Below are positions 17,251 through 33,514 of a stretch of 33,631 bases of DNA, one piece after another. The stretch's first letter is position 1. Each line of letters starts with the position of its first letter. The position numbers and the translations under genes are program-made. The notes under the pieces are model-generated. The model did not search any database, was not told where the DNA came from, and saw only the letters and a program-made list of their open reading frames with translations. The stretch comes from Methylophilaceae bacterium (GTDB lineage: Bacteria > Pseudomonadota > Gammaproteobacteria > Burkholderiales > Methylophilaceae), in the NCBI GenBank assembly GCA_029244935.1, contig JAQWQF010000012.1, forward strand, positions 1-33,631, read 5' to 3'.

Positions 17251-17251
17251 T

Positions 17252-18685: not shown

Positions 18686-18737
18686 ATATTTTATTAAAGT
18701 ATTAATTTTTTTTTCACGTAACCTAAAAAATATTAAA

Positions 18738-19424
18738 ATGAGAACAATACTTTTAGCAGCGGGATTCGGCAAGCGCTTAATGCCTTTAACTAAAGATATT
18801 CCGAAGTGCCTGGTTCCAATAAACGGAGTGCCACTTCTAGAAATTTGGCTAACTCGATTAATCAAATTTAATTTAGGACCATTTCTTATCAACACTCATT
18901 ACATGTCAGGCCAGGTTGAGTCATATATCAATGGTAGTCAGTATAGTAAAAAAATAACAATAGCTACTGAGCCAGTGCTTATGGGAACAGCTGGAACACT
19001 AGTTAAAAATTTAAATTTTTTTCAAGGTAAAGATGGCTTATTAATTCATTCTGATAATTATTGTATGGCTGATTTTAATGCTTTTACTGAGGCGCATCAA
19101 AATAGACCAAAAGAATGTTTGTTAACAATGATGACTTTTCGAACTAATAACCCATCATCATGTGGAATTGTTGAATTAAATCAACAAGGTATAGTAACTG
19201 GCTTTTACGAAAAAGTAACTAATCCACCAGGGAACTTAGCGAATGGAGCAATATATATATTGTCGGCTGAATTATTAGAGATGATAAAAAAAGAGCTATA
19301 TAGTGCAAAAGATTTCAGTACAGAAATACTAAGTCACTTAATTGGTCGCATTTATACTTATGAAACACAAGAGATTTTTATTGATATTGGAACCCCAGAA
19401 GCATATAAACAAGCCAATTCATAA
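18738..19424 (+). CDS. Sugar-1-phosphate nucleotidyltransferase, HddC-like
   Basis: A 228-residue NTP-transferase. The N-terminal nucleotide-binding signature 'LLAAGFGKRLMPLTKDIPKCLVPI' type (GxGxRLxPLTxxxPKxLxPI) is at about 5-28, and the metal-binding Asp lies in 'LIHSDNY' (about 97-103). 'NGAIYILSAELLEMI' and 'IDIGTPEAYKQA' close the domain. There is no C-terminal hexapeptide repeat, so it is a short-form enzyme like HddC (GDP-D-glycero-alpha-D-manno-heptose synthesis) or MurU, not GlmU or RmlA. The GmhA and kinase context favours HddC-like. It starts 52 nt after the bifunctional gene and is the last plus-strand gene of the operon. Confidence 0.8.
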   Translation: MRTILLAAGFGKRLMPLTKDIPKCLVPINGVPLLEIWLTRLIKFNLGPFLINTHYMSGQVESYINGSQYSKKITIATEPVLMGTAGTLVKNLNFFQGKDGLLIHSDNYCMADFNAFTEAHQNRPKECLLTMMTFRTNNPSSCGIVELNQQGIVTGFYEKVTNPPGNLANGAIYILSAELLEMIKKELYSAKDFSTEILSHLIGRIYTYETQEIFIDIGTPEAYKQANS

Positions 19425-19453: not shown

Positions 19454-20497
19454 TTATTCAAAATGTTCCATAACTATCAATGGACGAAAAACTCGACCAT
19501 TTTCAAGATCATCAAGAGCTTGATTAATTTGTTCTAGTTTATATTTTTTAGTAAGGAGAGCTCCTAGAGGGGTATCTGATTTATGGAACAAGTCATACAT
19601 TATAGGTATGTCTTTATCTGGCATGGTTGAACCGCCCCAACTACCTTCAATAGACTTTCCAGAAATAAGTTCATGCGGGGCTATTTTTAGCATTTCACCA
19701 TCAGGAGGGTGAGAAGCAAAAAGAAGTTTACCGTGATTTTTTTGAATTAACGAAAAGCCTAGTTCAATAGTTTTTACATGACCTCCAGACTCAATACATC
19801 TATCCGCACCACCATCTGTTAATTCATGTATATCTCTATGGATATTATTGTTTGTTGCATTGAAAGTATGTGTTGCACCTAATTCTTTGGCTAATGTTAA
19901 TTTTTCATCAGATATATCAACGGCAATAATCATCTTAATATTCAGTGCTTTTAGGGCCATAAGAGCAGAAAGACCAATCCCTCCCAAGCCAAGAACAATA
20001 ATTGATAGATCAGAAGATGGTTTTAGTTCATTTAAGACCATACCTGCTCCTGTCGGGAGGGCACAGCCAAAAAGAACGGCTATATCAAAAGGCAGAGATG
20101 TTGGTTTTCTTACAAGTCGATTTTCAGAAATAATAGAATAATTGGAAAAAGTGGTGACACAACCTGAATTTATAATTTGATTATCATATTTGTACTTAGC
20201 TCCAGGAGCCTCCATACCATCTCCTTTGACCCAACCTACAATTACTTCATCGCCAACCTCGATTTTCTTGACACCTTGACCGATTGCTTGAACAATACCT
20301 GAACCTTCATGGCCAAGCAGATGAGGTAGCCAATTATCAGAACCTCTTTTACCCTTAACCTCCATAAGTTGGCTACGGCACACACCACTATATAAAATCT
20401 TAATTAGAACTTGGCCTGGAAGAAGTGGAGCTGTATCAATTGATTTTAGTAATAGCGGTTTTCCGAGCTCTTCTAAAACTGCAGCATTAATCTTCAT
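19454..20497 (-). CDS. Zinc-binding alcohol dehydrogenase (MDR family)
   Basis: A 347-residue medium-chain dehydrogenase. The catalytic zinc ligands are visible: Cys40 ('GVCRSQ'), His63-Glu64 ('GHEGSG') and Cys145 ('FGCALPTGAG'). The NAD(P) site is GLGGIG (170-175), with an acidic residue after beta-2 (VDIS), suggesting NAD. The four-Cys structural zinc lobe usual in class I/III ADHs is absent: around residues 90-112 the sequence is GDGMEAPGAKYKY without cysteines. This is normal in some subfamilies. It is the last gene of the long minus-strand operon (3-nt gap after the SDR). A role in oxidising or reducing an alcohol or aldehyde intermediate of the cluster product is inferred. Confidence 0.88.
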   Translation of the reverse strand: MKINAAVLEELGKPLLLKSIDTAPLLPGQVLIKILYSGVCRSQLMEVKGKRGSDNWLPHLLGHEGSGIVQAIGQGVKKIEVGDEVIVGWVKGDGMEAPGAKYKYDNQIINSGCVTTFSNYSIISENRLVRKPTSLPFDIAVLFGCALPTGAGMVLNELKPSSDLSIIVLGLGGIGLSALMALKALNIKMIIAVDISDEKLTLAKELGATHTFNATNNNIHRDIHELTDGGADRCIESGGHVKTIELGFSLIQKNHGKLLFASHPPDGEMLKIAPHELISGKSIEGSWGGSTMPDKDIPIMYDLFHKSDTPLGALLTKKYKLEQINQALDDLENGRVFRPLIVMEHFE

Positions 20498-20500
20498 TAT

Positions 20501-21400
20501 TTATTTATCATTTTTATTGTTTATAAAACTATCTATATATGATTTTAGTCCATCTTCTAAACTTGTCATTTTAAAATTAGTAAGATTATTTAATAAATAT
20601 TGTGTATCAAATTTTACCTTAAAAGGTCTCTCTTCATAAGGCCCCATTTGAATCTTAATATTAGATTTTAGTCCTAGAATTGAAAAAATATTTTCAGATA
20701 TAGTAAAAATACTATAACTATCTCCTGTTGCAACATTAAAAACTCCAGCCGTATTATTCCTGATTATCTGTTCAGTTATTCGAGCCACATCATTGGCTGT
20801 AATATAATCTCTTTCGATATTAGGGTTACAAAATAGGTAAATACTACCCTCGCTAATAGCAGATGCTACCAATCGATGAAGTGTACTTCCTTTGCTATCA
20901 CCCTGCCCATAGGATCCTGAAAGCCTGAGTATTGCTAGATCAAATCCTTTTAATTTAGATTCTTTTTTTAAAATATCTTCACTAATTAATTTTGATTTAG
21001 AATAAAAACAATGAGGCTCAGTCTTATTTAACTCACTAATTGGTAGTGTTGAATTTATTCCATACACATCTACGGTGCTTAAAAATATAACTTTTTTAGT
21101 GTCATTAGGAAGGCCTTCTAAAATATTTTTTATGATTTGAATATTTTTTTCGTATGCAGCCTTAGTGTTATAAATATATTCATCAGCTAATCTAGTTATA
21201 GCAGCAGGGATTATAAATATAGAGGACGGTGGAATACGTTTAAGTAAAGAAGAAACTGATTTTTTATCTAATAAGTCGCACATATTTCTATCAATGAGAT
21301 CAACTTTATATGAATTATTTATTAAATATGAAGTTATATTTTTACTAAGAAAACCTGCACCTAGAACTACAATTGATTGTGTATTTTTATTTGGATTCAT
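20501..21400 (-). CDS. NAD-dependent epimerase/dehydratase-like SDR
   Basis: A 299-residue extended SDR. The nucleotide loop reads GAGFLSKN (14-21), so the third Gly of GxxGxxG is Ser19. The active site 'FLSTVDVYG' (106-114) with Tyr133 and Lys137 in 'YSKSK' is intact. 'LRLSGSYGQGDSKGSTLHRLV' and 'RDYITANDVARI' are typical of sugar-nucleotide epimerases and reductases. It is slightly short for the family (usually 310-340). It lies 43 nt after the radical SAM gene and 3 nt before the alcohol dehydrogenase. The substrate is unknown, and a 4-keto-sugar reductase or epimerase role is likely given the dehydratase at the operon's start. Confidence 0.8.
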   Translation of the reverse strand: MNPNKNTQSIVVLGAGFLSKNITSYLINNSYKVDLIDRNMCDLLDKKSVSSLLKRIPPSSIFIIPAAITRLADEYIYNTKAAYEKNIQIIKNILEGLPNDTKKVIFLSTVDVYGINSTLPISELNKTEPHCFYSKSKLISEDILKKESKLKGFDLAILRLSGSYGQGDSKGSTLHRLVASAISEGSIYLFCNPNIERDYITANDVARITEQIIRNNTAGVFNVATGDSYSIFTISENIFSILGLKSNIKIQMGPYEERPFKVKFDTQYLLNNLTNFKMTSLEDGLKSYIDSFINNKNDK

Positions 21401-21443: not shown

Positions 21444-22589
21444 TTAAATAGTTCTGACGGGAATATTACCAATTGTTTCTTTTATTTCATGTTTTAGGTC
21501 TTTATCTAACATTTTTGCGTCATTTTTTGGGAGTAAATAGCCGCACCTATTACATCCACCTACAGTCCCTTCTTCTCTAATCGTATCCTTAAATTCTCTA
21601 AATACAGAACTAGATATAATATCAGTTAATTTTTTTTCTTTAACATTCCCCATTTTTATAGCCATGCAAGGGAAAAGATTTCCATCAACATTAATATGAA
21701 CACTCTCCCATGGCGCCTTACACTGCTTGAAATCAGCAGCATTATGATCACCATTATTAATAAATCCTAAATCAAGATTATTCAGAGGTTTGGGACTATT
21801 AAGCTCAATAACTTTAGGGTGTAAAAAACATTTTTTATTCATTGCAATGTTATATTCCCTAACCTTTTCTAGCTCATTTAATATGATTGGAAGTTTTTTA
21901 TACACATAAGCCTTTGACTCATACATCATATTTTCTATTGGTATCATATGGTCAGCGTATTGAATTGGTGAACCCTTTAGCAGCATGAAACTGTGAGTAT
22001 CACATTTAAGTTTTTCAATACAATATTTATGAATATCAAATAAATCACTAGCATTTTCATCTAGAACAACTGTTTTTGAATCTAGTACTGTACTTGATTG
22101 ATATTCATCTCTTTTTTTACTAAAGCGACGCATTAATTTTTCTGCCTTGAGCCATTGATCTGGAACAACATCTCTAACAATGTTTCCAATATCATCAACC
22201 GATATTGATAGTACTTTAAAATTTGGTGTTGATAATAGCAATTCAATTATTTCTTCTGTGAGTAAAAGCCCATTTGAAATAATATTGCATGTATGTTTTT
22301 TAGTGACAGCCTTAAAAACCTCTTCAAAGCCTTTAAATAAGAAAGGTTCTCCACCTGTTAAAGTTACATGTGCATATTCAGGAAGCTGATCAATAAGTTC
22401 TAACCATTGTTCAGTTGTAAGACTTCCTTCTATACGATCTTTTTCCTGAAAGCAAAATGAACATTTTAGATTACATCTATTTGTTAGAACAAAAACATAT
22501 CTGTGAGGCAGCATAGAAGGGTCATCATATATTTTTTTAGAATAATCTATGCGTGCTTGATGATAGTCTGTATTTTTTATATTAGCCAT
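21444..22589 (-). CDS. Radical SAM enzyme with SPASM/twitch domain
   Basis: A 381-residue enzyme. The radical SAM cluster motif CxxxCxxC is Cys39, Cys43 and Cys46 within 'LTNRCNLKCSFCFQEK'. 'TLTGGEPFLFKGFEEV' (76-91) is the SAM-binding GGEP motif. A C-terminal cysteine set (Cys290 in 'QCKAPWESVHINVDGNLFPC', Cys308, then Cys346 and Cys349 in 'GGCNRCGY') marks a SPASM or twitch auxiliary Fe-S domain. Such domains occur in peptide-modifying enzymes and in some carbohydrate-modifying enzymes such as BtrN-like dehydrogenases. Its place inside a sugar operon suggests oxidation, deoxygenation, epimerisation or C-C chemistry on a sugar intermediate, but no reaction can be assigned. No small precursor peptide gene is adjacent. 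Confidence 0.87.
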   Translation of the reverse strand: MANIKNTDYHQARIDYSKKIYDDPSMLPHRYVFVLTNRCNLKCSFCFQEKDRIEGSLTTEQWLELIDQLPEYAHVTLTGGEPFLFKGFEEVFKAVTKKHTCNIISNGLLLTEEIIELLLSTPNFKVLSISVDDIGNIVRDVVPDQWLKAEKLMRRFSKKRDEYQSSTVLDSKTVVLDENASDLFDIHKYCIEKLKCDTHSFMLLKGSPIQYADHMIPIENMMYESKAYVYKKLPIILNELEKVREYNIAMNKKCFLHPKVIELNSPKPLNNLDLGFINNGDHNAADFKQCKAPWESVHINVDGNLFPCMAIKMGNVKEKKLTDIISSSVFREFKDTIREEGTVGGCNRCGYLLPKNDAKMLDKDLKHEIKETIGNIPVRTI

Positions 22590-22621: not shown

Positions 22622-23797
22622 TTAAAAAATATTTGTTAAGGTATAAATTCGCCTTGGTTGATAATTTAATATCTTCTTTAATAATGGTTTTGTACTATCT
22701 AGTGCAGTTATTAAAACAATAGAATCTGTAATATCACCACTCGAAAATTTTTCAATTTTAGGAGAAATATATGGCAAATATTTACCTACTCTATTATCAT
22801 TATCGTCGTAAATTTTTGAAATCCAATCTAAATTAGATTCCATGTGATAACCAATTATAGGAAGCATTTGAGCGGCCCCGAAACCAATAACTTCTTCATC
22901 AAATGCTTGCATTTGATTTAAAGATTCCTGGAGTTGTTTTTTATATATGTTGTAGTTATCGGTGATTTGCTTTTCTTGGAAAATATTAAAACTATTGTTA
23001 GGCACTTTTTCTTTATTGATTTTACTAGTTTTTTTAAACCAATATAATGAGGTACCTCCCCAAAGAGAATAATTGTACTTGCTTCCCATAAACTCACAAC
23101 CAATACGCTCTATAAGGAATCTCATGGATGAATACGAGAAATACTGTAGATGTTGATGAAAAATCTGATCATACCTTCTTTGATTGATTGTAGATTCAAG
23201 ACTAGGTACTTCAATAAAAAATAAGCAATCATCAGCTGCTAAATCGACTAATTTAAAAAACTCCTCGTATATACCATCAACGTGCTCAAATGTATGAGAT
23301 GAAATAATTAGGTCTGGCTTTACATTAAGGTCTGTATCATCCAATTCATTAATAAATTTTCCTTTTATAGATATTTTATTATCAATTATGAAGTCTTTAT
23401 CTTTCCAGACAGGGTCTATTCCAATCAGATTTTTTGCTTTGCTTGATAATTTCTTTATTAGATATGCATCGTTACATCCTATTTCTAGAATCTGATTAAA
23501 CTCCTTGTTTTTAACTACACTCTCTATTGTATTAAAAAAAAAGTCATTCCCACTTATGGATATATTACTTCCAGATGTTCTATGGCTATAGCTATCATCG
23601 TAAATAAGATCTGCATCTATTACATTTTTTAATTGGCCGTGACCACAATTCTTACAATAGTTAAAACCTTGGTCATACAAATTATTTTCTAGGTCTTTTT
23701 TTTCAAGATACAGTCCAGTTAATGGCATTTTTGGCATCTTGATTAATTCCACTAATTCATTATTCGAACAAATATTGCAAGTAGTTCTAACTCCCAT
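22622..23797 (-). CDS. Sugar C-methyltransferase-like protein (zinc-finger, class I MT, C-terminal reductase-like domain)
   Basis: A 391-residue protein with the three-part layout of nucleotide-sugar C-methyltransferases (TylC3, NovU, TcaB9 type). A zinc-ribbon uses Cys7, Cys10, Cys48 and Cys51. The SAM fold has 'ILEIGCNDAYLIKKL' (103-117) and 'SSHTFEHVDG'. The C-terminal Rossmann-like domain contains 'VIGFGAAQMLPIIGYHM'. In the family the region after the SAM domain carries a Y-H-E-H motif with catalytic residues. Here it is F213-H214-Q215-H216, so catalysis may differ. The start overlaps the ThDP-methyltransferase stop by 1 nt. It probably modifies a keto-sugar in this operon. Confidence 0.82.
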   Translation of the reverse strand: MGVRTTCNICSNNELVELIKMPKMPLTGLYLEKKDLENNLYDQGFNYCKNCGHGQLKNVIDADLIYDDSYSHRTSGSNISISGNDFFFNTIESVVKNKEFNQILEIGCNDAYLIKKLSSKAKNLIGIDPVWKDKDFIIDNKISIKGKFINELDDTDLNVKPDLIISSHTFEHVDGIYEEFFKLVDLAADDCLFFIEVPSLESTINQRRYDQIFHQHLQYFSYSSMRFLIERIGCEFMGSKYNYSLWGGTSLYWFKKTSKINKEKVPNNSFNIFQEKQITDNYNIYKKQLQESLNQMQAFDEEVIGFGAAQMLPIIGYHMESNLDWISKIYDDNDNRVGKYLPYISPKIEKFSSGDITDSIVLITALDSTKPLLKKILNYQPRRIYTLTNIF

Positions 23798-26367
23798 TAC
23801 ATTACCTCCATATCTACCCAGGAATAATCTCCTGAATACGAAAAATCAAATAACAATTTTTTCCATTCATTGACTGAAAAATAAGATTCAGCTGAGATGT
23901 TCCATGAGCGATATTTATCTAAATCTCTTACACTTCTACTTCCAGAAATACTTATATATGAATGTAACTTTTTAACTCTTTCAATTTCTTGTATTGCTTT
24001 TTCTAATAAGTGTTCAGGAACCTCATTTAATGTATTAAGACATATAACTAAATCAAAATTTCGATCCTCGTAAGGAAGTTGATCTACAGAACCAGTACGT
24101 ATAAATCTTTTTACCTTTGGATGAGCGTTTTTAACGGCATATTTTGATATATCAATACCTGATAAAGTAACGCCTGGAACTAATTTTTTCAGCTCATACA
24201 GAAGAAATCCTTTAGCACATCCAATTTCCAGAATCTTAGAATTTTTAGTAATTTTATAATGCTTAATAATATCTCTAGCAACCCCCTTAAAAAATTTTGA
24301 ATCATAGTAATATCCGCCATAACCTTCACTTCTTTTTCCATCAAAATAACTTTTACCAAATCTTTCAAAATTTTTAAGTATGTGTTGATTCAAAAGGTTT
24401 CCTGCTAAAATAGTTCCCGATTCGTCATGTGAATTTAATATCAAATCTTCATCCATATCCTGAATTAAATTAACTTTTTTCGGCGTACGTACACCAACTT
24501 TTTTTTCATGTGGGTATGTCTTTGTTAAATTAATTTCTTTACCAGGCAATTTAATATGTTTACCACTCCTTGTGGTTGATAACGAATTGTACAGCGACCT
24601 ATCAAGATATGGATACATATCATCAAGTGCTAATGGAGAAAATATACCATTTTCATCAGAGCTAAAACCTTGTCTAGGGACAATTTCTTGTTTCTCACTT
24701 ATTAAAACTTCACAAATAGTAGGTATTTTTTCTGAGGTAATTTCTTTTAATTTACTATGTAACCCTGATTGAGAAGTCAGTAACTTATATTTTAAGTTAA
24801 ATGCTTTTGAAATATTTTTTATATTAAGTAAATGTAAGCCAGTATTTGGTGTAGAGCCATAAAAGCGCTTATCTAGAAATTCATTTTGTGTTGATTTAAT
24901 TGAGGTATATCCATTGTTATTAAATACAAAAATAGTAATAGGCATTTTTATATTTGAGATTAATTGTAATTCTTGAACATTAAATGGAAGACTTCCATCA
25001 CCTATAAAACATATGATTTTCTTTTTTTTGTCCGCATAATGTACGCCAATAGATTCAGGTATTCCAGAACCCATTGAACATAAACTAGTTGATAATATAA
25101 CTTTTTGATTTTTTTTAATTCTTAATGACTGGAACGAGGAGTAAACAATTGTTCCTCCACCATCAATCACATAAGAATATGACTTGTCTAACATTTTACT
25201 TAGTACATGTTGAAAATAATATGAATTTATCTTGTCTGTATTTTTTTGGTAGTTTAGAGCTATAAGATTTTGTTCTCGGTATTTACTTGTATATTGGAAC
25301 CACTCTTTATTAGTATTTTGATAGTTAAATTTAGTTTTATCTAAGTAAGTAAAAAGTTTATTAATATCGCAATTTATACTTTTCGTTAAATTTAATGGTG
25401 AATTATCGGTTTCATTCTTATCTATATCTATCATTATAATTCGTGCATTTGGTGCAAAGCTGGTTGGCCTGACTGTTACAATACTGGAGTTTAGATGACT
25501 GCCAATTGCAATAATTAAGTCAGAATTATGCAATCCCAGATTAGCTCCTCTATGCCCAGCTATTCCTGGGCATCCAAGATTTAATTTATCTTCAGAATCA
25601 AAAGTATCAAAATTTGACCATGTCACTACATATGGAATTTTAGTATTTTTAATAAATTTCTTAACTAACGATTCGGCATTAGATAGACGAATTCCATATC
25701 CAGCTACAATTATTGGTTTCTTTGATTCTAAAAGAGACTGTTTTAGGTTTTTAGAAATTTCATTTAATAATCTATTGCTTACGGTTGGATATTTTTCAAT
25801 TTCTTCTTTACTTGGGTAAAATGATATTTGATCCTTTGCCTTAATAAATGACCATCCAATATCAACTGGTATATCCAGCCAAACCGGACCTGGCCTTCCA
25901 TTACTGACAAAATAAATCGCTTTTTGAAGTTCGTACTTAACATCAGTAAGAGAGTAAATAGTTTTTGCATATTTTGTGACTGACTTAACCATTGGCACTA
26001 TATCAATTTCCTGGGTCCCAACCTGCCTTAAATTCCTGCCATTTATTGTTTGATTTGTTCTTGCTTGTCCTGAGATAAAAATACAAGGAATAGAATCAAG
26101 CCATGCAGCTGTAAGTCCTGTCAATGCATTCGTTGCTCCAGGACCAGTTGTAAATATTCCTACCCCGAGTTTATTTTTGTGCCTGCTATATGAATTAACA
26201 GCAAATGATGCAGATTGTTCATGATTAAAATAAACTGCTTCAGTTTTTGGATTTTTCTCAACTGAATCAAATAGGTGAACAGCTGCACCCCCTGTCACAC
26301 CAAAAAATTTTTCACAACCATTCTTTTGCAAAAAATCGATTATAAAATCGGAACATTTAATAGCCAT
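23797..26367 (-). CDS. Fusion: acetolactate-synthase-like ThDP enzyme plus class I methyltransferase
   Basis: An 856-residue fusion. Residues 1-595 are a complete ThDP-dependent enzyme of the acetolactate synthase/YerE group. The PYR domain has catalytic Glu50 in 'FNHEQSASFAVN' and 'TTGPGATNALTGLTAAW'. A central domain spans about 190-345. The PP domain has GDG (456-458) and 'FVFNNNGYTSI' (480-490). A linker of about 70 residues leads to a SAM methyltransferase (about 665-856) with 'ILEIGCAKGFLLYEL' and 'DLVICLNTLNEVPEH'. The tail resembles the free-standing methyltransferase at 31850-32509 (shared FDGxRxxGYGGxxY, GCAKGF and GDYxW). The ThDP part could transfer a two-carbon acetyl unit from pyruvate to a keto-sugar, as in YerE, but this is inference. 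Confidence 0.85.
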   Translation of the reverse strand: MAIKCSDFIIDFLQKNGCEKFFGVTGGAAVHLFDSVEKNPKTEAVYFNHEQSASFAVNSYSRHKNKLGVGIFTTGPGATNALTGLTAAWLDSIPCIFISGQARTNQTINGRNLRQVGTQEIDIVPMVKSVTKYAKTIYSLTDVKYELQKAIYFVSNGRPGPVWLDIPVDIGWSFIKAKDQISFYPSKEEIEKYPTVSNRLLNEISKNLKQSLLESKKPIIVAGYGIRLSNAESLVKKFIKNTKIPYVVTWSNFDTFDSEDKLNLGCPGIAGHRGANLGLHNSDLIIAIGSHLNSSIVTVRPTSFAPNARIIMIDIDKNETDNSPLNLTKSINCDINKLFTYLDKTKFNYQNTNKEWFQYTSKYREQNLIALNYQKNTDKINSYYFQHVLSKMLDKSYSYVIDGGGTIVYSSFQSLRIKKNQKVILSTSLCSMGSGIPESIGVHYADKKKKIICFIGDGSLPFNVQELQLISNIKMPITIFVFNNNGYTSIKSTQNEFLDKRFYGSTPNTGLHLLNIKNISKAFNLKYKLLTSQSGLHSKLKEITSEKIPTICEVLISEKQEIVPRQGFSSDENGIFSPLALDDMYPYLDRSLYNSLSTTRSGKHIKLPGKEINLTKTYPHEKKVGVRTPKKVNLIQDMDEDLILNSHDESGTILAGNLLNQHILKNFERFGKSYFDGKRSEGYGGYYYDSKFFKGVARDIIKHYKITKNSKILEIGCAKGFLLYELKKLVPGVTLSGIDISKYAVKNAHPKVKRFIRTGSVDQLPYEDRNFDLVICLNTLNEVPEHLLEKAIQEIERVKKLHSYISISGSRSVRDLDKYRSWNISAESYFSVNEWKKLLFDFSYSGDYSWVDMEVM

Positions 26368-26369
26368 AA

Positions 26370-27161
26370 TTAATTGTCATCAACTTTTTGAAAGTAATGG
26401 CGAGCTTGACCACCTTCAACTGGAATAACAGAACCTATACAAAATGATGCTTTTTCAGAACAAAGTAAAACTACAATAGGACTTATCTCATCTGGCTGCC
26501 CAAACCTTCCTAAAACCGTCCTTTCATCGAGATATTTTTTTGCATGCTCTGAATTAGCGTTGCTTGATGTCCAGTGACCGTCCTCAGTTATTACAACACC
26601 AGGTAATACTGCACTCATAACAATCCCTGTTTTCTCAAGCGCTAAAACTCTAGCCATTGACCTTGAATAGGCAGTGTAAGCTGCTTTTAGAGAAGAATAA
26701 GGAACAGGCCCGCTATTTTCCATCGACGCCCCTGCTGTAATATTAACTATTCTCCCCCATTTATTTTTCTTCATAACAGGAATAACTTTATTATTTATTT
26801 CTATTGCCACCCCCATAATTAATTTAAATAAATCATACCAATCATCTAAAGGACATAATGGATCTAGAATACCTAATGTAGCACCAACGTTGTTTACAAC
26901 AATGTCTATCGATCCAAATTGATTCATAACTAAATCAACTAGCTCTGTTGGTGAGTTATCTTTAGTCAATTCACATTTAAAACCTACGCACTTGTTATTG
27001 ATCTTCTTTAGATCAGCTAAAGCATCATTAAGTTTTTCATCACTCCGGCTAGTGATAATTACTGTTGCACCTTCTAATGCAAGATCAGTTGCAATAGCTT
27101 TGCCAATTCCAGATGCACCTCCAGTTACTAAAGCAATTTTATTTTTAATTCCTAAATCCAT
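26370..27161 (-). CDS. Short-chain dehydrogenase/reductase (classical SDR)
   Basis: A 263-residue FabG-type oxidoreductase. The cofactor loop is TGGASGIG (13-20). 'VNNVGA' follows at about 89-94. The catalytic Ser146-Tyr155-Lys159 set lies in 'NITAGASMENSGPVPYSSLK'. 'PGVVITEDGHW' and 'CSEKASFCIGSVIPVEGG' close the domain. The length is standard. Arg39 and surrounding residues after beta-2 ('TSRSDEK') favour NADPH, tentatively. It sits 2 nt from genes on both sides, between the HpcH aldolase and the ThDP fusion, which suggests reduction or oxidation of a keto or hydroxy intermediate passed between them. Substrate unknown. Confidence 0.87.
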   Translation of the reverse strand: MDLGIKNKIALVTGGASGIGKAIATDLALEGATVIITSRSDEKLNDALADLKKINNKCVGFKCELTKDNSPTELVDLVMNQFGSIDIVVNNVGATLGILDPLCPLDDWYDLFKLIMGVAIEINNKVIPVMKKNKWGRIVNITAGASMENSGPVPYSSLKAAYTAYSRSMARVLALEKTGIVMSAVLPGVVITEDGHWTSSNANSEHAKKYLDERTVLGRFGQPDEISPIVVLLCSEKASFCIGSVIPVEGGQARHYFQKVDDN

Positions 27162-27163
27162 TT

Positions 27164-27937
27164 TTATTTACCTTTTACTTTATTGAAGTGTGATGTGATG
27201 TCTGAGAAGGATTTTAATATCACTGAGCAGTCTGCATCATAAGTAATGTATGTAGCACCATTATCTATTAAGAATTCTAGGTCCCTTTTGTTTGTAGCAA
27301 TCGAGCCTAAAATAAAACCTGAACCCAATATTTTATCTGCGATCAGTTTAAATGCTTTGATAAATTTAGGACTTTTAAAATTACCAGGGATACCAATTGA
27401 AATTGATAAATCATACATCCCAATAAAAAATATATCAGACCTTTTATTCTCTAATATTTTATCTATATTTTCTAGAACATTTACTCCTTCAAGTTGGGGA
27501 ATAATTAATAAATCGTTATTATAGCTGGCAATAAAATTATCCATATCAGCAGAAAAATATTTTGCAGATGACGTAAAAGGTGAGAGTCCTTTTTTTCCTT
27601 CTGGAGGGTATAGGGAGTATTCCTGAATCCTATCGATATCACTAAGAGAATATACGTTAGGAATTTGAATTCCATCAATATTAATTTCTGTTGCTTTTTG
27701 AATCTCTGATTTATTGATAGATGAGACTCTAAGAATTGCTGAAGTATTATTTTTATGTGCAACCATAGTCATAAGTTGAGCTTTTTCTAAAGATATTGGG
27801 GAATGTTCATTATCAATCACAATGAAATCAATATCAGAGCTTGAAATAATATCAATCATTTCGACGGAAGGCACAGTAATCCAGGTACCTATACAAGATT
27901 GTGTTTTATTTAGTTTTTGTTTTAGTTGTTTTTTCAT
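27164..27937 (-). CDS. HpcH/HpaI-type 2-oxoacid aldolase
   Basis: A 257-residue class II aldolase of the HpcH/HpaI family. These enzymes join or split pyruvate (or a related 2-oxoacid) and an aldehyde to give 4-hydroxy-2-oxoacids. His45 in 'IDNEHSPISL' and Arg70 in 'AILRV' match the HpcH catalytic His and Arg. The metal ligands are the Glu in 'PQLEGV' and the Asp in 'FIGMYDLSISIG'. The start ATG lies inside the end of the DmpG-like gene, giving a 32-nt overlap in another frame, so expression is likely coupled. The aldehyde partner is unknown. Two aldolases in one operon imply both making and breaking, or sequential extension, of a carbon chain. Confidence 0.85.
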   Translation of the reverse strand: MKKQLKQKLNKTQSCIGTWITVPSVEMIDIISSSDIDFIVIDNEHSPISLEKAQLMTMVAHKNNTSAILRVSSINKSEIQKATEINIDGIQIPNVYSLSDIDRIQEYSLYPPEGKKGLSPFTSSAKYFSADMDNFIASYNNDLLIIPQLEGVNVLENIDKILENKRSDIFFIGMYDLSISIGIPGNFKSPKFIKAFKLIADKILGSGFILGSIATNKRDLEFLIDNGATYITYDADCSVILKSFSDITSHFNKVKGK

Positions 27938-28934
27938 TATTTTTTATCCAGTTAGCAGCTTCTACAATTTTATCTTCTTGTCCACCAATAACTTTTTGTT
28001 TTCCTAAGTAAGCATATATCTTTCTTGAGTCAACATCGTATACCTTTGCAACTTTTTCGATATGTTTATTAAACCCAGAAAAAATTCCTGTAAGACCACT
28101 AATTACCGCACTTGAAGTTATTGTGGGCGATTGTTCGATAAATTTATTCATTGCAAGTTCTGATGCATCAAGTGCAGAATATAAATCAATGCCTGTTTGG
28201 TATTTCATTCTTTGTAAAACAGCAACAAGAACTTCTAGTTGAGCATTACCTGATCCAGCACCAAAACCCTTGATAGAGGAATCAACAACTGTAGCTCCAT
28301 TTTCAATTGCAGTTATTGAATTGGCAATTGCTAAGCCTAAATTATTATGAGCATGGAAACCAACATTAATTGATAAATTTTTGACTAGGTATGAAATTCT
28401 GCTCTTCACATCTTCGGTAATATAATTGCCAGCAGAGTCAAAAATACTAACCCCAGACGCACCATATTCTTGGAATATTTTTGCTTGCTTGAGTAATTCT
28501 TTTTTATCAACCATGTGACTCATCATTAGAGCACCATAAACTGTAACGCCATTCTTTTTTGAAAACTCTATAAAATTTTTGGAGATATTTGCTTCGGTAC
28601 AATGCGTTCCGACACGAACGATATCTACTCCAATATCTATTGCTTTAGTTAAATCATCTTTTATGGTTGCAAAGCCTGGCATGACATGAACAGCCAACTT
28701 TGTCTTTTTTAAAATCTTTCTGGCAATCGTAAGCATTTTTTTATCAGTACACTTAGAAAAACCAACTTGAAGAGAGCTTGCACCTAGACCATTCCCATGC
28801 CCAACCTCAACGACAGGGATACCTGCTTTTTCAGCTATTTTGCAGTATTTTTCAATGGAGTCAGCGCCTAGTTGATGACTTATGGCATGGTTGCCGTCTC
28901 TTAGGGTAGTGTCATGTATGATTATTTTTTTCAT
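27906..28934 (-). CDS. DmpG/MhpE-like 4-hydroxy-2-oxovalerate aldolase
   Basis: A 342-residue aldolase with the DRE-TIM barrel. The N-terminal 'HDTTLRDGNHAISHQ' holds Arg12, Asp13 and His16, equivalent to the DmpG/BphI catalytic Arg, metal Asp and base His. The metal-binding pair His194/His196 lies in 'VGFHAHNNLGLAIANS'. 'VIGGQEDKIVEAA' near the C-terminus is a DmpG signature, followed by the communication-domain region that docks the dehydrogenase. The tyrosine that contributes to stereocontrol in BphI is Phe285 here ('GIFSGF'). In aromatic degradation this enzyme splits 4-hydroxy-2-oxovalerate to pyruvate and acetaldehyde, channelling the latter to DmpF. It overlaps the DmpF-like gene by 4 nt, consistent with a complex. 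Confidence 0.9.
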   Translation of the reverse strand: MKKIIIHDTTLRDGNHAISHQLGADSIEKYCKIAEKAGIPVVEVGHGNGLGASSLQVGFSKCTDKKMLTIARKILKKTKLAVHVMPGFATIKDDLTKAIDIGVDIVRVGTHCTEANISKNFIEFSKKNGVTVYGALMMSHMVDKKELLKQAKIFQEYGASGVSIFDSAGNYITEDVKSRISYLVKNLSINVGFHAHNNLGLAIANSITAIENGATVVDSSIKGFGAGSGNAQLEVLVAVLQRMKYQTGIDLYSALDASELAMNKFIEQSPTITSSAVISGLTGIFSGFNKHIEKVAKVYDVDSRKIYAYLGKQKVIGGQEDKIVEAANWIKNNEKTTKTKTK

Positions 28935-29809
28935 ATTTTATTATGTGCAATATGCTCCGCTACCTTAATTGCTGCAGCATTGATAATATCAAGATTACCA
29001 GAGAATTTGGGCAAATAATCTCCATTGCCGATAACTTTTATCATTATAACTAATCTTTTTTCAATAATTTTAGGGTCTAAAGCTAAGTCATATCCGGTTA
29101 TATATTCTTTTACCCGGTTGATAGTTGTATGTAAATTTTTTGTAAGAGAGCTTAAGTTAATATTATTGTCTTTTAATAAAAAAGATAATGTAGTTTGCAT
29201 GTATATAGGAGGTTCAGCAGGGTTCAGTATTAAGATGACTTTATTTGCTTTATTTCCCGAAAATTCTTTGATTGCTGATGCTGTATTTGTAACATATTCA
29301 TCAATATTAATTCTAGTTGCTGGACCTGCACTGATTGATGCAATAGATGAAACTAGTTCAATATACTGGACACGATTACCAAGTATTTTTTTTACTGTAT
29401 GAATTAATGGTATAGATGATTGCCCGCCACAACTTACCATATTGATATTTTTATTAACTAAAGCATCATCTAAATTTATGGTTGGAATTATTGGACAACC
29501 AATCTTTGAGGGGGTCATATCAATTACATTAATATTAGTTTTTTTTAAAATTTCCCAATGAGTTAAATGATCTTTTGCAGAGGTAGCATCAAAGACAAGA
29601 TCAATATTTTCCTTTTTATTTATAATTGCATCTATTCCTTTATTAGATACATTGAAACCCTTTTTTCTTGCAAATACCAAACCCTCAGACTTAAGGTTTC
29701 TCCCAGCTACTAATTCACAGGATAGAACTTTAGATTTTCTTATCTTACATAGAAGATCAATCCCTATCTTCCCTGATCCTAATATTGCTACATTTAACAT
29801 TCTAGTCAT
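28931..29809 (-). CDS. DmpF/MhpF-like acylating acetaldehyde dehydrogenase
   Basis: A 292-residue enzyme that converts an aldehyde to its acyl-CoA with NAD and CoA. The nucleotide loop is GSGKIG (11-16). The active-site Cys is Cys127 in 'NMVSCGGQSSIPLIH'. 'SSIASISAGPATRINIDEYV' and 'GNGDYLPKFSGNLDIINAAA' are typical of DmpF/BphJ. The usual length is 300-316, so it is slightly short. It overlaps the E1 beta stop by 1 nt and the aldolase start by 4 nt. In known systems DmpF and DmpG form a channelling heterotetramer. No aromatic-ring degradation genes accompany the pair here, so it probably works in biosynthesis or on a non-standard aldehyde. Confidence 0.9.
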   Translation of the reverse strand: MTRMLNVAILGSGKIGIDLLCKIRKSKVLSCELVAGRNLKSEGLVFARKKGFNVSNKGIDAIINKKENIDLVFDATSAKDHLTHWEILKKTNINVIDMTPSKIGCPIIPTINLDDALVNKNINMVSCGGQSSIPLIHTVKKILGNRVQYIELVSSIASISAGPATRINIDEYVTNTASAIKEFSGNKANKVILILNPAEPPIYMQTTLSFLLKDNNINLSSLTKNLHTTINRVKEYITGYDLALDPKIIEKRLVIMIKVIGNGDYLPKFSGNLDIINAAAIKVAEHIAHNKI

Positions 29810-30864
29810 TAGAATGGTCCTTCAAACCATTCACCGGGAATATCATGGGGCATGGGCTCTATTAAATCTTTTCTTACTTGGCTAGTATCTCTTTCCATCA
29901 TGTTCATTATTTTTTCTACAATATCAGCTGCTCTAATATAAAATCCTTTAGTGAGGGAATAGCTAGTTGGCTCTGGGACATCCGGCATCGCTAATCTTGC
30001 AGGAGCTGATTTAAGCATCTTAAATTTTTCCATAGATACCCGAGCAATAATTTCACCTGCGACTGAACCAGTAGAGAATCCAGAGTCGAGCGTTAATAAT
30101 CGACCAGTTTTTGATACTGAATCCATTACAGCTTCCCAATCTAGAGGTTTAATAGTTCTCAAATCAATTACTTCACAGGAAATTCCTTGCTTCTCTAAGT
30201 AATTTGAAGCATGTATAGCTTCTATAGACATATATGACATCGTAACTATAGTTATATCTTTTCCTGATTTAACAATTTTTGCCTTGCCTAGTGGTACCCT
30301 AATATCACCATCTGGTACCTCTCCAATACTATTATGTAACCAGCGATGCTCCAAAAATATTACTGGATTAGGATCAAAAATAGAAGCCAATAGCATCCCT
30401 TTTGCATCTTCGGGAGTTGTTGGCATAACAACCTTCAGCCCAGGAATATGAGAAAACCATGCCTGGAGGTTCTGCGAATGTGTAGGCCCTTGGCCCCAAC
30501 CTCGGCCAATAATTAACCGAATTGTAATGGGCACACAATTTTGACTGCCAAACATGTAATGCCATTTAGCGGCACCATTAACCAGTTGGTCCATTGCTAA
30601 GAGGAAAAAATCAATACGTTGGTGTGTCATAACTGATTTTATGCCATTGAGTGCAGCCCCAATTGCCACGCCTGTCATAGCATTCTCTGAAGTTGGCATA
30701 TCGAAAACACGTTCTGGACCAAATTGCTTCTCTAGGTTTATAGTTGTACCAAATACAGCTTTAGGATCTGTTACTCCTAAACCATAACAAATTACAGAAG
30801 AGTCTAGTTGCATGGCTTCATGTAAAGCTTTATTTATAGCCTCAACATAAGTCATTTGACTCAT
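29809..30864 (-). CDS. 2-oxoacid dehydrogenase E1 component, beta subunit
   Basis: A 351-residue transketolase-type beta subunit (PDH/acetoin dehydrogenase E1 beta-like). Catalytic Glu60 in 'DMPTSENAMTGVAIGAAL' binds the ThDP aminopyrimidine. 'GRGWGQGPTHSQNLQAWF' (about 120-137) contains the conserved His129, and 'GLKVVMPTTPEDAKGML' is the usual PYR-domain stretch. The C-terminal transketolase_C domain is present ('TVAG'-like 'DSGFSTGSVAGEIIARV'). The start ATG overlaps the E1 alpha stop (ATGA). GGAG precedes it. It forms a heterotetramer with the alpha subunit in the family. No E2 (dihydrolipoyl acyltransferase) or E3 gene is present, so it may use a different acyl acceptor. Confidence 0.92.
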   Translation of the reverse strand: MSQMTYVEAINKALHEAMQLDSSVICYGLGVTDPKAVFGTTINLEKQFGPERVFDMPTSENAMTGVAIGAALNGIKSVMTHQRIDFFLLAMDQLVNGAAKWHYMFGSQNCVPITIRLIIGRGWGQGPTHSQNLQAWFSHIPGLKVVMPTTPEDAKGMLLASIFDPNPVIFLEHRWLHNSIGEVPDGDIRVPLGKAKIVKSGKDITIVTMSYMSIEAIHASNYLEKQGISCEVIDLRTIKPLDWEAVMDSVSKTGRLLTLDSGFSTGSVAGEIIARVSMEKFKMLKSAPARLAMPDVPEPTSYSLTKGFYIRAADIVEKIMNMMERDTSQVRKDLIEPMPHDIPGEWFEGPF

Positions 30865-31865
30865 TTTGACGTCTCCTCTGTTGCATAAACTCCCTCGTAA
30901 GCTTCTGATTGATCAGGAAATGGTGATTTTTCTGCAAATTCAAATGCCGCGGCTACCTCTGAGTTAATCTGCTCCTTGATTGAGAAGAGTTTTGTAGTTG
31001 TGTCGGATCCATTTTTAGTTAGGCTACTTTCCAATAGCTTTAAGGGATCTTTCGCTTGCCATTCTAAAAATTCATCTTGGCTTCGGTAACCTATATCATT
31101 ATCAAAATTGTGCCCACAATGTTCTCGCCAGCGATAAGTAGAAAATTCAAGGAAATGAGGCCCATTACCAGATCGAACATTACTCACAGCTTTTTTCATT
31201 AATTGTTGATTGGCTAAAATATCGTTATCATCACCAAAACTCATATCGATTCCCATAGCTCCAACCATTTTTGCAATACTTCTACCTTTTGGTTGCCTGA
31301 CCGAAAGATCGCTATAAACCGAATATAAATTATTTTCACAAATAAAAAGAACAGGTAACTTTTTCACAGCTGCAAAATTAACAGACTCATAAAAGACACC
31401 TTCTTCAATAGCACCATCACCTAAAAATATACAGCTAACTTGATCAGTACCTTTTATTTTTGAAGAGAGCCCTAAGCCTACCCCTACAGGTATGCTATTG
31501 CCAACAATTGCTGAGGTACCCATAAAATTTACATTACGATCTATTAAGTGCATAGAGCCTCCCTTACCTCTTGAGCACCCAGTAGATTTACCATAAATTT
31601 CAGCAATCATAGCATTCAGATCTCCTCCCTTAGCTAAATAATGTGCGTGACCTCGGTGAGTGCTTACAGTAAAATCACCCTTAGTAATTGTTAACGCAAA
31701 CACTGAAGGAATAGCTTCTTGACCGGTCGATAAATGAACCGGGCAACGCATTTTTCCTTCAGAGTATCGACGAGAAATTTCTTCTTCAACCTTTCGTATC
31801 CTATACATATGATAGAAGAGGTCTAGAGAATTTTTATTAGAGCTATTATTTACGGGGTGAACCAA
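30861..31865 (-). CDS. 2-oxoacid dehydrogenase E1 component, alpha subunit
   Basis: A 334-residue ThDP-binding alpha subunit. 'MYRIRKVEEEISRRYSEGKMRCPVHLSTGQEA' (about 20-51) is the conserved N-terminal region with His44. 'THRGHAHYLAKGGD' and 'GKGGSMHL' are also standard. The ThDP motif is GDGA (149-152) with Asn178/179 in 'ICENNLYSV'. The start is TTG (complement 31863-31865), with GGAG at 31873-31876 and a 7-nt spacer. It overlaps the methyltransferase stop by 16 nt. The first in-frame ATG (residue 20) would cut conserved sequence. It pairs with the beta subunit downstream. Acetoin dehydrogenase and branched-chain oxoacid dehydrogenase E1 enzymes are the closest concepts, but the substrate is unknown. 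Confidence 0.92.
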   Translation of the reverse strand: MVHPVNNSSNKNSLDLFYHMYRIRKVEEEISRRYSEGKMRCPVHLSTGQEAIPSVFALTITKGDFTVSTHRGHAHYLAKGGDLNAMIAEIYGKSTGCSRGKGGSMHLIDRNVNFMGTSAIVGNSIPVGVGLGLSSKIKGTDQVSCIFLGDGAIEEGVFYESVNFAAVKKLPVLFICENNLYSVYSDLSVRQPKGRSIAKMVGAMGIDMSFGDDNDILANQQLMKKAVSNVRSGNGPHFLEFSTYRWREHCGHNFDNDIGYRSQDEFLEWQAKDPLKLLESSLTKNGSDTTTKLFSIKEQINSEVAAAFEFAEKSPFPDQSEAYEGVYATEETSK

Positions 31866-32509
31866 AAGTAATCTCCATTATAATTTACCTCTTTAAAAAA
31901 TTTGATCCATTCATCAACTGACATGATGGTTTTAGCAGTTAAGTTCCAGGCATACATCCGCTCTTTTTCTTCTTCATTTCGATAGGCATCAACTGTAATA
32001 AATGATTTTCCTTTACTTACTCGCTCAATTTCTTGTAGGGCTTTTCCACATTCTTCACGATCAAGATTGTGAATAGTATTAATTGAAATTACTACATCAA
32101 AAGAATCGTCAGGAAATGGAAGTTGAATTGCATTTGCAACCTCGGTATAAGGCTTCATACTGTCTATTGCATTATCAATTGCATACTCTGAAATATCAAC
32201 GCCCCTAACATTTATCCCAGGAATCAGTGATGTAAGATCATGAAGCATAAAACCTTTGGCACAACCTACGTCAAGTAATGATGAATCTTTGGTTAAATTC
32301 CAATACTCTTTAAATTTTGGTATAACCGGCTGCCAAAAACGTGGCATATAATTAAAGCCGCCATAACCATGTTTCCTATCTCCATCGAAGAATTCACGAC
32401 CAAATTTCCTCGCTATAAGTCTATCGGCATCACTTTTAGACGCAAGTCTTTCCTCTAAATTACGTTTTGCTTTAGGATAATTTTCAAGTAGATCTATTTC
32501 TTTTCTCAT
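31850..32509 (-). CDS. Class I SAM-dependent methyltransferase
   Basis: A 219-residue methyltransferase. The SAM-binding glycine motif is within 'LLDVGCAKGFMLHDL' (about 78-92), the acidic residue in 'VRGVDISEYA' follows beta-2, and 'SFDVVISINTIHNL' is motif IV. The N-terminal 'KFGREFFDGDRKHGYGGFNY' and the C-terminal 'GDYFWF' recur in the C-terminal domain of the ThDP fusion encoded at 23797-26367. The two are paralogs within one operon. It lies between the RmlB-like dehydratase (18-nt gap) and E1 alpha (16-nt overlap). The acceptor is unknown and could be a sugar hydroxyl, a carbon or a carboxyl group. Confidence 0.85.
   Translation of the reverse strand: MRKEIDLLENYPKAKRNLEERLASKSDADRLIARKFGREFFDGDRKHGYGGFNYMPRFWQPVIPKFKEYWNLTKDSSLLDVGCAKGFMLHDLTSLIPGINVRGVDISEYAIDNAIDSMKPYTEVANAIQLPFPDDSFDVVISINTIHNLDREECGKALQEIERVSKGKSFITVDAYRNEEEKERMYAWNLTAKTIMSVDEWIKFFKEVNYNGDYFWFTP
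31873..31876 (-). promoter_or_regulatory. Ribosome binding site deciding the TTG start of E1 alpha
   Basis: The minus strand reads GGAG 7 nt before the TTG at 31865-31863, inside the end of the methyltransferase frame. It supports the non-ATG start and a 16-nt gene overlap, indicating coupled translation. Confidence 0.6.
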
Positions 32510-32527: not shown

Positions 32528-33514
32528 TTAGGCTTTATGTTGATAATTATATGATTCTTTTTTAAGGGCCTCTAAATTTTCTTTTACCCAAAATATACAT
32601 TCATCTAATCCTTGATCTAACTTGATTTGATCCTCCCAACTCATCTCTTTTCTTAGCTTTGTACTGTCAAGATGATATGCCAAATCTTTACCGGCACGTT
32701 CGCTAACAATCTCAACATAATCTTCGAATTTTACGTTTAATTTTACACAAATTATTTCTACTAGCTCACGAATTGAAATGACCTCATTCGTTGAAATGTG
32801 GTATGTTTCACCGGCTTTTGCTTGTTCCATAATATTCCAGGTAGCTCTGGATACATCGCTCATATGTATAAAAGAGCGAGTCGACAAACCCCCGCCATGC
32901 AACTGTATTTTTTTCCCTAATAATATAAAAAATATGGTGCGCGGAATAATTCGATATAGTTGCTGACCGGGACCATAAACGTTAGCCGCACGAGTTGTCA
33001 CTACTGGGAAATTATACGTATCATAAAAGGTTCGTAGACTCATATCTGCCGCTGCTCTAGAAACGGCATAAGGGGTACTGGGATTGAATGGAAACTTTTC
33101 ATCAACAAATCCTGTACATGACCCGTAGACCTCAGGTGTGGAAATATGAATGTACCTTTTTAAAAAATTACATTTTCTAAGGCTATCATGAAGGTTTGTA
33201 GTTGAGACTACGTTAGTCATAAACCAATCGGCGGGATTTAACCAGCTTTCCCCAACCATACTCTGCGCTGCAAAATTAACAATATGGGTTGGTTTTACAT
33301 CATTAATAAGTGTAATAATTTCTTTTAGGTGATGATTTAGATCTAATGAATGAAATGTAAAACTATCATGATTTTCCCATTTATAAGGTAAGAAAGGATA
33401 ATTCGCTTCTTTAGAGCGACTAATTCCTACAACGTTGGCTCCTTGTTTTAATGCATAGCCCACAAAAGAAGCCCCAGAAAAAGAGTTACTGCCTATAATT
33501 AAGATATTATCCAT
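32528..33514 (-). CDS. RmlB/GMD-like nucleotide-sugar 4,6-dehydratase-type SDR
   Basis: A 328-residue extended SDR. Overall layout fits NDP-hexose 4,6-dehydratases: 'NFAAQSMVGESWLNPADW' (80-97), 'HISTPEVYG' (123-131), 'PYAVSRAAADM' (148-158) and 'TRAANVYGPGQQLYRIIPR'. The RmlB acid/base pair Asp-Glu in TDEVYG is Pro127-Glu128 here. The catalytic YxxxK is Tyr149-Arg153, with Arg in place of Lys. The nucleotide loop is GSNSFSG (8-14), with Ser in the middle Gly position. I recall a subgroup with these changes, so it is probably functional, but its reaction may differ (dehydratase, epimerase or decarboxylase). It abuts the upstream partial gene with no gap. Confidence 0.83.
   Translation of the reverse strand: MDNILIIGSNSFSGASFVGYALKQGANVVGISRSKEANYPFLPYKWENHDSFTFHSLDLNHHLKEIITLINDVKPTHIVNFAAQSMVGESWLNPADWFMTNVVSTTNLHDSLRKCNFLKRYIHISTPEVYGSCTGFVDEKFPFNPSTPYAVSRAAADMSLRTFYDTYNFPVVTTRAANVYGPGQQLYRIIPRTIFFILLGKKIQLHGGGLSTRSFIHMSDVSRATWNIMEQAKAGETYHISTNEVISIRELVEIICVKLNVKFEDYVEIVSERAGKDLAYHLDSTKLRKEMSWEDQIKLDQGLDECIFWVKENLEALKKESYNYQHKA

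Follow-up and report, generated by a model that had tools for sequence, protein, structure and literature searches.

The window, the whole 33,631-nucleotide (nt) contig JAQWQF010000012.1 of a Methylophilaceae bacterium (assembly GCA_029244935.1; G000 below), carries a minus-strand operon for both E1 subunits of a 2-oxoacid decarboxylase, DmpF, DmpG, an HpcH/HpaI-family aldolase, a short-chain dehydrogenase/reductase (SDR) and a YerE-like thiamine diphosphate (ThDP) enzyme fused to a methyltransferase. On balance, this operon probably produces a nucleotide sugar with carbon branches that is destined for a glycan, the acid made by DmpF and DmpG (DmpFG) being joined to the sugar by the YerE-like enzyme and the E1 pair performing a second ligation. 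All reactions of this pathway are deduced from the gene content, families, catalytic residues and module associations that were observed.

In the proposed pathway DmpF (28931–29809), an acylating acetaldehyde dehydrogenase, would convert acetyl-CoA to acetaldehyde and hand it to the aldolase DmpG (27906–28934), which would condense it with pyruvate to 4-hydroxy-2-oxopentanoate, for which the (4R) configuration is predicted. In a reaction like that of ErwE in the erwiniose pathway, the YerE-like ThDP enzyme (23797–26367) would then decarboxylate this acid and attach the resulting four-carbon acyl anion at the C4 keto group of a 4-keto-deoxy sugar. The branch ketone would be reduced by the SDR (26370–27161), a candidate for this step, or by an epimerase. 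E1 alpha (30861–31865, TTG start) and its partner subunit E1 beta (29809–30864), of the sugar type, would act with the 4,6-dehydratase and methyltransferase encoded before them in a parallel second, probably pyruvate-derived C2 carboligation on the dehydratase product, without E2 or E3. This C2 step was given to the E1 pair because its core is kept in two relatives of the same genus (G021 and G018) without adjacent DmpFG, and because the E1-type sugar enzymes described so far are limited to C2 units. The HpcH/HpaI-family pyruvate aldolase (27164–27937), with YfaU as closest solved structure, has the least certain role and would probably supply a further or longer 4-hydroxy-2-oxo acid.

The six genes from E1 alpha to SDR (26370–31865) had been named as a contiguous set in the initial annotation, and as such they stand: all six open reading frames were complete, on the minus strand and in the same order, with overlaps of 4, 1, 4 and 32 nt followed by a 2-nt gap, and Pfam and NCBIfam supported each family assignment. 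The NCBIfam equivalog cut-offs were exceeded by DmpF (336.5 bits, cut-off 282.25) and DmpG (368.2 bits, cut-off 286); the scores of E1 alpha, E1 beta, HpcH and SDR fell under theirs. As a full unit the set was too short, the decisive neighbour having been left out. The SDR gene lies 2 nt from that of the 856-residue ThDP–methyltransferase fusion, and the class I methyltransferase gene (31850–32509) shares 16 nt with the start region of E1 alpha, so the operon extends beyond the six genes. Its first nine genes encode dehydratase, methyltransferase, E1 alpha, E1 beta, DmpF, DmpG, HpcH, SDR and the ThDP fusion.

The YerE-like carboligase and DmpFG

The best solved-structure match of the fusion protein was 8rph at 311 bits, ahead of an acetolactate synthase at 269 bits; we take 8rph, 8rpi and 8rpj to be JanthE. 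In a 22-row tree, in which YerE and ErwE themselves were not among the rows, the window enzyme fell on the YerE-like side and three acetolactate synthases, one of them from the window genome, lay across a 100/100 branch. The window enzyme keeps GDGS...N and NHEQS, presumably the ThDP-binding motif and the motif of the N-terminal catalytic Glu, and 8rph shows CDG at the former. By its sequence the fusion is a YerE/JanthE-like ThDP carboligase (about residues 1–605), with ketone carboligation as a putative activity. The methyltransferase part (about residues 669–850) is paralogous to the methyltransferase at 31850–32509. Passages of PMC12247030 describe a CDG motif instead of GDG in JanthE, and report that ErwE accepts 4-hydroxy-2-oxo acids, not pyruvate, and acts on cytidine diphosphate (CDP)-4-keto-3,6-dideoxyglucose. 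Glucose-1-phosphate cytidylyltransferase, CDP-glucose 4,6-dehydratase and RfbH, all above their NCBIfam cut-offs, are encoded on contig C14 of the window genome. The erwiniose-type arrangement, RfbF-RfbG-RfbH beside DmpFG and a YerE-like ThDP gene, was thus not found in the window, RfbFGH lying on C14.

A second branched-sugar locus was observed on C14 (L212:4369–13664), with RfbF-RfbG-RfbH, a NeuB-family protein carrying a cupin domain, a YerE-like ThDP enzyme, a C-methyltransferase and an epimerase. The NeuB-like synthase could make 3-deoxy-2-oxo acid donors.

The setting of DmpF was examined in 398 genomes of the phylum. At 1e-30, 34 genomes gave matches, seven of them at 342 bits or more and the rest below 295 bits; two of the seven (G344 and G301) had no sugar reference genes nearby. 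Searches at E 1e-95 of overlapping class and order samples (369 and 399 genomes) added two RfbFGH-type DmpF loci from the class sample and none new from the order sample. Eight bacterial sugar-type loci were compared besides the window and G018 (G246, G231, G443, G408, G001, G034, G746 and G849). RfbH-like genes were present in all eight (six at 344 bits or more, two at 181–191 bits), RfbF-like genes in seven and YerE-like ThDP genes in six; in the remaining two loci the contig stops about 0.1 and 2.6 kb after the DmpFG–epimerase genes. None of the six catabolic DmpF loci had RfbH-, RfbF- or YerE-like genes. Their neighbours (ten scanned) included catechol 2,3-dioxygenase-like proteins at L052 and L055, the FAA-hydrolase family at L052 and L057 and ChsH2/MaoC at L054; at L053 and L056 the scan gave nothing specific.

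A maximum-likelihood DmpF tree was built from 53 rows, 21 of the viral rows being chosen mostly by number. All 21 rows labelled as catabolic, six by neighbourhood and 15 by score alone, fell on one side of a branch with support 100/99, the non-catabolic rows not being shown to form one clade. The window DmpF lies outside this aromatic-catabolism clade. A meta-cleavage remnant was ruled out by the DmpF clade, the DmpG residues and the neighbours. The scores of DmpF and DmpG exceed catabolic equivalog cut-offs and would suit a methylotroph that uses the pair in normal catabolism or to recycle aldehydes, with the sugar genes adjacent by chance; as clade, DmpG active-site residues and neighbours are all unlike those of catabolic loci, this explanation is barely credible.

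In plasmids 284 records matched DmpF, of which 15 were listed and one, L062, was opened and represented another setting. DmpG-DmpF genes lie beside an aminotransferase gene at L051:8530–11813 and L062:10958–14223, with Cys at the Tyr290 site, and the L062 neighbours also include ATP-grasp and flavin adenine dinucleotide (FAD) proteins. These two loci look like another biosynthetic use of DmpFG.

The active site of DmpG was compared with that of the catabolic aldolase BphI, which, according to passages of PMC3962088, uses and forms only (4S)-4-hydroxy-2-oxopentanoate, loses stereochemical control in the Y290F variant and becomes (4R)-specific in the L87N/Y290F and L87W/Y290F variants. In the alignment the window DmpG has His83 and Phe285 as equivalents of BphI positions 87 and 290, in place of the catabolic Leu and Tyr. 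Counts were made on 84 aligned sequences, four of the 71 viral DmpG having been dropped as too short or absent. The BphI-87 site held His in 8/8 sugar-type bacterial sequences (window and G018 included), 66/67 viral and 3/3 other sequences, and Leu or Ile in 6/6 catabolic ones; the BphI-290 site held Phe in 7/8, 62/67 and 1/3, respectively, and Tyr in 6/6 catabolic ones. The DmpG of G746 and G849, outside the 84 counted, also have His and Phe. Because His83 and Phe285 sit at sites where BphI mutations invert stereochemistry, (4R)-4-hydroxy-2-oxopentanoate is the predicted product; His differs from the Asn or Trp of the BphI mutants, which makes this a prediction by analogy. The window DmpFG keep the catalytic Cys (Cys127 of DmpF), metal His and Arg-Asp-His motif of DmpFG/BphIJ, residues which we assume to have their usual roles. 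Erwiniose we take to be 3,6,8-trideoxy-4-C-[(R)-1-hydroxyethyl]-D-gulo-octose, a name that could not be confirmed and for which no paper was found; on that name, our own hand assignment would put an R centre at the matching carbon. In excerpts of the literature erwiniose is called C4-branched and ten-carbon.

The E1 pair and the two modules

The E1 pair is accompanied by a 4,6-dehydratase-like protein for nucleoside diphosphate sugars (32528–33514), of the deoxythymidine diphosphate (dTDP)-glucose 4,6-dehydratase family but below the equivalog cut-off, and by the methyltransferase at 31850–32509; their counterparts in the core of G021 are 76% and 84% identical. E2 was searched for with E2 proteins from four family members. 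None was found in the window, as initially claimed, nor near any of 30 loci of the window E1 type (26 genomic, 4 plasmid), versus 6/7 control loci of ordinary E1 beta; five further E1 loci, a Streptomyces plasmid among them, also had no E2. The 1.25 Mb host genome gave a single E2-type match, on another contig, and a single match to the window E1 alpha. E3 was absent among 20 window proteins scanned, a dedicated search having been made only for E2. The neighbouring lipoyl acyltransferase E2 of a pyruvate dehydrogenase complex is therefore missing from the window, where E1 alpha and E1 beta lie beside deoxysugar genes with no E2 nearby, as in the alpha-KADH2 type. Neither catabolic nor E2 settings were found for window-type DmpF or E1 loci, in agreement with the initial annotation. 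The human E1 alpha stretch TYRYHGHSMSDP is replaced by TYRWREHCGHNFDND in the window E1 alpha, which at this level is a putative mark of the family and no proof of a lost lipoyl contact.

In the 398 phylum genomes the E1 beta search gave a top group at 433 bits or more, made up of 28 matches in 23 genomes and including G000, with the rest at 384 bits or less. An orphan pyruvate or acetoin dehydrogenase was ruled out by this separate E1 group and the lack of a nearby E2. Among 26 sugar-type E1 loci outside G000, E1 alpha was adjacent or fused in every one; 13 had HldE- or GmhA-like genes nearby, 11 had NAD epimerases/dehydratases and six had the window methyltransferase family; DmpF, DmpG, HpcH and YerE-like ThDP genes were found in none of the 26. 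In plasmids 941 records matched E1 beta, of which 15 were listed and five opened. Four of these, of glycan type, entered the alignments and counts, and the Streptomyces plasmid L063, of another setting, was excluded from both. On two of the opened plasmids sugar-type E1 pairs lie near annotated glycosyltransferases. The two subunits often form one fused chain of about 690 residues (L168, L172, L174, L175 and others), and two E1 alpha/beta pairs occur within one sugar locus at L200:9865–14856 (G080) and L179 (G323).

The initial annotation had allowed a hydroxy-oxoacid to become either a sugar branch or an acyl decoration. The former is the best-supported reading. For the latter, the E1 pair would oxidatively decarboxylate the hydroxy-oxoacid and an amino or hydroxy sugar would receive, for example, a 3-hydroxybutyryl group. 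A 3-hydroxyacyl unit might in principle be obtained from these enzymes, but with no E2 partner, no acyltransferase family among the scanned operon proteins and a carboligase as the usual partner of DmpFG elsewhere, acyl decoration is very improbable.

The two relatives divide the operon. In G018 the genes for DmpF, DmpG, HpcH, SDR and ThDP fusion and the later genes keep the window order, at 86–87% identity where computed, and a separate contig has dehydratase, methyltransferase, E1 alpha and E1 beta in window order, the E1 subunits being 90–91% identical. What comes before its DmpF gene is the tail of the gene that stands ahead of the dehydratase, together with a short remnant of the start of the dehydratase itself; its E1 beta gene is followed by a different open reading frame, not DmpF. 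These breakpoints (L002:1–420 and L016:1–508) mark a recombination or deletion point between the modules. In G021 dehydratase, methyltransferase, E1 alpha and E1 beta are conserved at 75–84% identity (75–80% for the E1 subunits). The stretch from there to near the contig end holds genes for a methyltransferase, an SDR and a split transketolase, and upstream of the core lies one for a YerE-like enzyme, which shares about 40% identity with the window ThDP enzyme. No DmpF was found in the G021 genome, which is 68% complete. This glycan-type locus (L198:7947–18657) contains three types of ThDP enzyme: YerE-like, E1 alpha/beta and the split transketolase pair.

The six genes are thus two modules: E1 with 4,6-dehydratase and methyltransferase, and DmpFG with YerE-like carboligases and mostly RfbFGH. 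The E1 core stands without DmpFG beside it in the 26 surveyed loci and G021, so it is a unit of its own around which donor-making genes vary. Sugar-type DmpF and sugar-type E1 beta co-occurred only in G000 among the phylum genomes, and within the family G018 was the only other genome holding both. The idea of one conserved six-gene cassette, put forward at first, is ruled out by this distribution.

The position of E1 beta directly upstream of DmpF in the window, and the YerE-like enzyme that groups with the window's but sits in G021 at a locus without DmpFG, would both fit a route in which the adjacent E1 pair takes the DmpFG product and the fusion uses pyruvate or the HpcH product. Such a route is unlikely, though worth keeping in view: the E1 subunits are far closer to those of G021 than the ThDP enzymes are, DmpFG are missing from the 26 other sugar-type E1 loci, E1 beta is not beside DmpF in G018, and the E1-type sugar enzymes known from passages of PMC12247030 carry out C2 transfer only.

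Several observations weigh against the proposed branched-sugar pathway. RfbFGH lie outside the window, on C14, with a YerE-like ThDP enzyme and NeuB-like gene of their own, and the window's own dehydratase is of the dTDP type, so the acceptor in the window may be another sugar. The grouping of the window ThDP enzyme with that of G021 means that its donor may not be the DmpFG product. HpcH accompanied sugar-type DmpF in only 1/8 loci, and also occurred in 1/6 catabolic loci. At the Tyr site of DmpG, Val is found in one sugar-type bacterial sequence (L048) and Met or Val in 5/67 viral ones, and the three DmpG in other settings, with no ThDP neighbour, also carry His, so that His alone is no marker of sugar use. 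The E1 and DmpFG modules are apart in G018 and adjoin only in the window contig, which is thus the one place where the E1 beta/DmpF junction is seen; misassembly at this junction is unlikely. Lastly, no glycosyltransferase was present among the 20 scanned window proteins, a set that covers all of the operon and the facing group described below.

Neighbouring genes, glycan destination and virus contigs

After the ThDP fusion the minus-strand operon continues with a Methyltransf_13/23 protein (22622–23797), a candidate sugar C-methyltransferase with a 75% identical gene in G021, a radical SAM/SPASM protein (21444–22589), an NAD-dependent epimerase/reductase (20501–21400) and a zinc-type alcohol dehydrogenase (19454–20497). 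The final 117 nt of the window contig are the end of one more gene upstream of the dehydratase. A facing group on the plus strand (15722–19424) encodes an epimerase, a GmhA-like isomerase, an HldE-like cytidylyltransferase-kinase and a nucleotidyltransferase. In the HldE-like protein (17198–18685) the cytidylyltransferase domain precedes the kinase domain, the reverse of HldE, in which the kinase comes first.

We infer a surface polysaccharide as the destination of the sugar. Were the branched sugar instead part of a diffusible specialised metabolite, this would be in keeping with the origin of characterised E1-type sugar enzymes in antibiotic clusters, as given in excerpts of the literature, and with the lack of a glycosyltransferase among the scanned window proteins. 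This destination is improbable, because genes for heptose-type precursors are found close to related E1 pairs, as are annotated glycosyltransferases on two plasmids, and because no polyketide or peptide scaffold gene was present among the 20 scanned proteins.

DmpF genes were also found on virus contigs, at 71 loci. A YerE-like ThDP gene, called by best match to one of two references and checked in the tree for nine, lay within eight genes in 71/71 and was directly adjacent in 70; DmpG lay within eight genes in 70 and was adjacent in 66. Of the 71 loci, 62 also had a 4,6-dehydratase-like gene nearby and 46 an RfbH-like one. The ThDP-DmpF-DmpG cassette recurs in loci L096–L166 (for example L096:10001–10858 and L137:10001–10846). 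HpcH relatives were sought in the viral contigs and none was found. Large-terminase matches of the tailed-phage type exceeded the cut-off in 6/25 of the longest virus records; capsid matches for nucleocytoplasmic large DNA viruses were seen in 0/25, a count that says little since the control for that search also matched nowhere. Twenty viral flank proteins gave few matches to PHROGs, to glycosyltransferase, HNH and head-maturation-protease families, and named phages gave one DmpF match, in a Salmonella contig.

Part of the viral cassette is already in print under another reading. Passages of PMC5454428 report acetaldehyde dehydrogenase, acetolactate synthase and aminotransferase in MpV1 and MpV-PL1 as amino-acid synthesis genes, a 4,6-dehydratase in 3/4 Micromonas viruses, and MpV-SP1 as the sole virus with two transketolase genes. 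By this description the alternation of acetaldehyde dehydrogenase with transketolase mirrors that of DmpFG in the window with transketolase in G021, and the Micromonas virus gene sets may be branched-sugar cassettes rather than serve amino-acid synthesis.

A more elaborate form of the pathway, offered tentatively and rather unlikely as a whole, would have two ThDP carboligases and two pyruvate aldolases act on one sugar to give a (4R)-hydroxybutanoyl-type C4 branch, a C2 branch and a C-methyl group. Relatives would swap donor modules around the kept E1 core, namely DmpFG-HpcH in the window, split transketolase in G021 and possibly the NeuB-like synthase on C14, and viruses would share the kit. 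If true, this would be a combinatorial system of branched sugars, and algal viruses with acetolactate synthase, acetaldehyde dehydrogenase and transketolase, genes that have been assigned to amino-acid or sugar metabolism, may build branched capsid sugars instead.

Relation to known systems

The claim that no described pathway has exactly this gene set was partly upheld, as the combination was not found described but each half has precedent, in ErwE/erwiniose and in the E1-type pairs. No other operon with both ThDP enzyme types, DmpFG and HpcH was found in the literature or genome samples searched. The literature search gave no paper linking DmpFG to O-antigen or lipopolysaccharide and no report of the DmpG residue switch in nature. 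The chemistry is of a known kind; the enzyme combination and the DmpG active-site changes look new.

The proposed pathway would link two enzymes of catabolic background with the construction of glycans, in bacteria and virus contigs, and put E1-type sugar enzymes, which are familiar from antibiotics, into glycan-type loci of Gram-negative bacteria. A natural DmpG whose two substitutions coincide with the positions engineered in BphI to switch stereochemistry allows a sharp test, and the operon offers chemists and glycobiologists a compact set of enzymes for carbon-carbon bonds.

The closest solved relative of the window ThDP domain is the 8rph protein, which we take to be JanthE; that enzyme has CDG, whereas the window enzyme has the canonical GDG and a methyltransferase tail. 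With the DmpFG/BphIJ of aromatic meta-cleavage the window pair shares two fold families, the catalytic Cys, the metal His and the Arg-Asp-His motif, but it differs in its separate DmpF clade, the Leu to His and Tyr to Phe changes in DmpG, and its sugar neighbours. E1-type sugar pairs are described for avilamycin, paulomycin and kibdelomycin in excerpts of the literature. These alpha-KADH2 pairs (AviB1/B2, Plm8/9, Pau11/12 and KbDH) resemble the window in having E1 alpha/beta beside deoxysugar genes and make a two-carbon branch; they belong to actinomycete antibiotic clusters, whereas the window pair is part of a glycan-type locus in a Gram-negative bacterium, together with aldolases and another ThDP enzyme. 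In the ErwE/erwiniose system of Pectobacterium atrosepticum and in caryophyllose synthesis (MMAR_2332), a YerE-like ThDP enzyme joins a 4-hydroxy-2-oxo acid to a 4-keto-deoxy sugar for a surface glycan, according to passages of PMC12247030. DmpFG would be a fitting source of this acid and give it a likely origin for ErwE-type enzymes. Compared with the ErwE system, the window adds E1 alpha/beta, HpcH, the methyltransferase fusion, a C-methyltransferase and a radical SAM protein, and has RfbFGH elsewhere in the genome.

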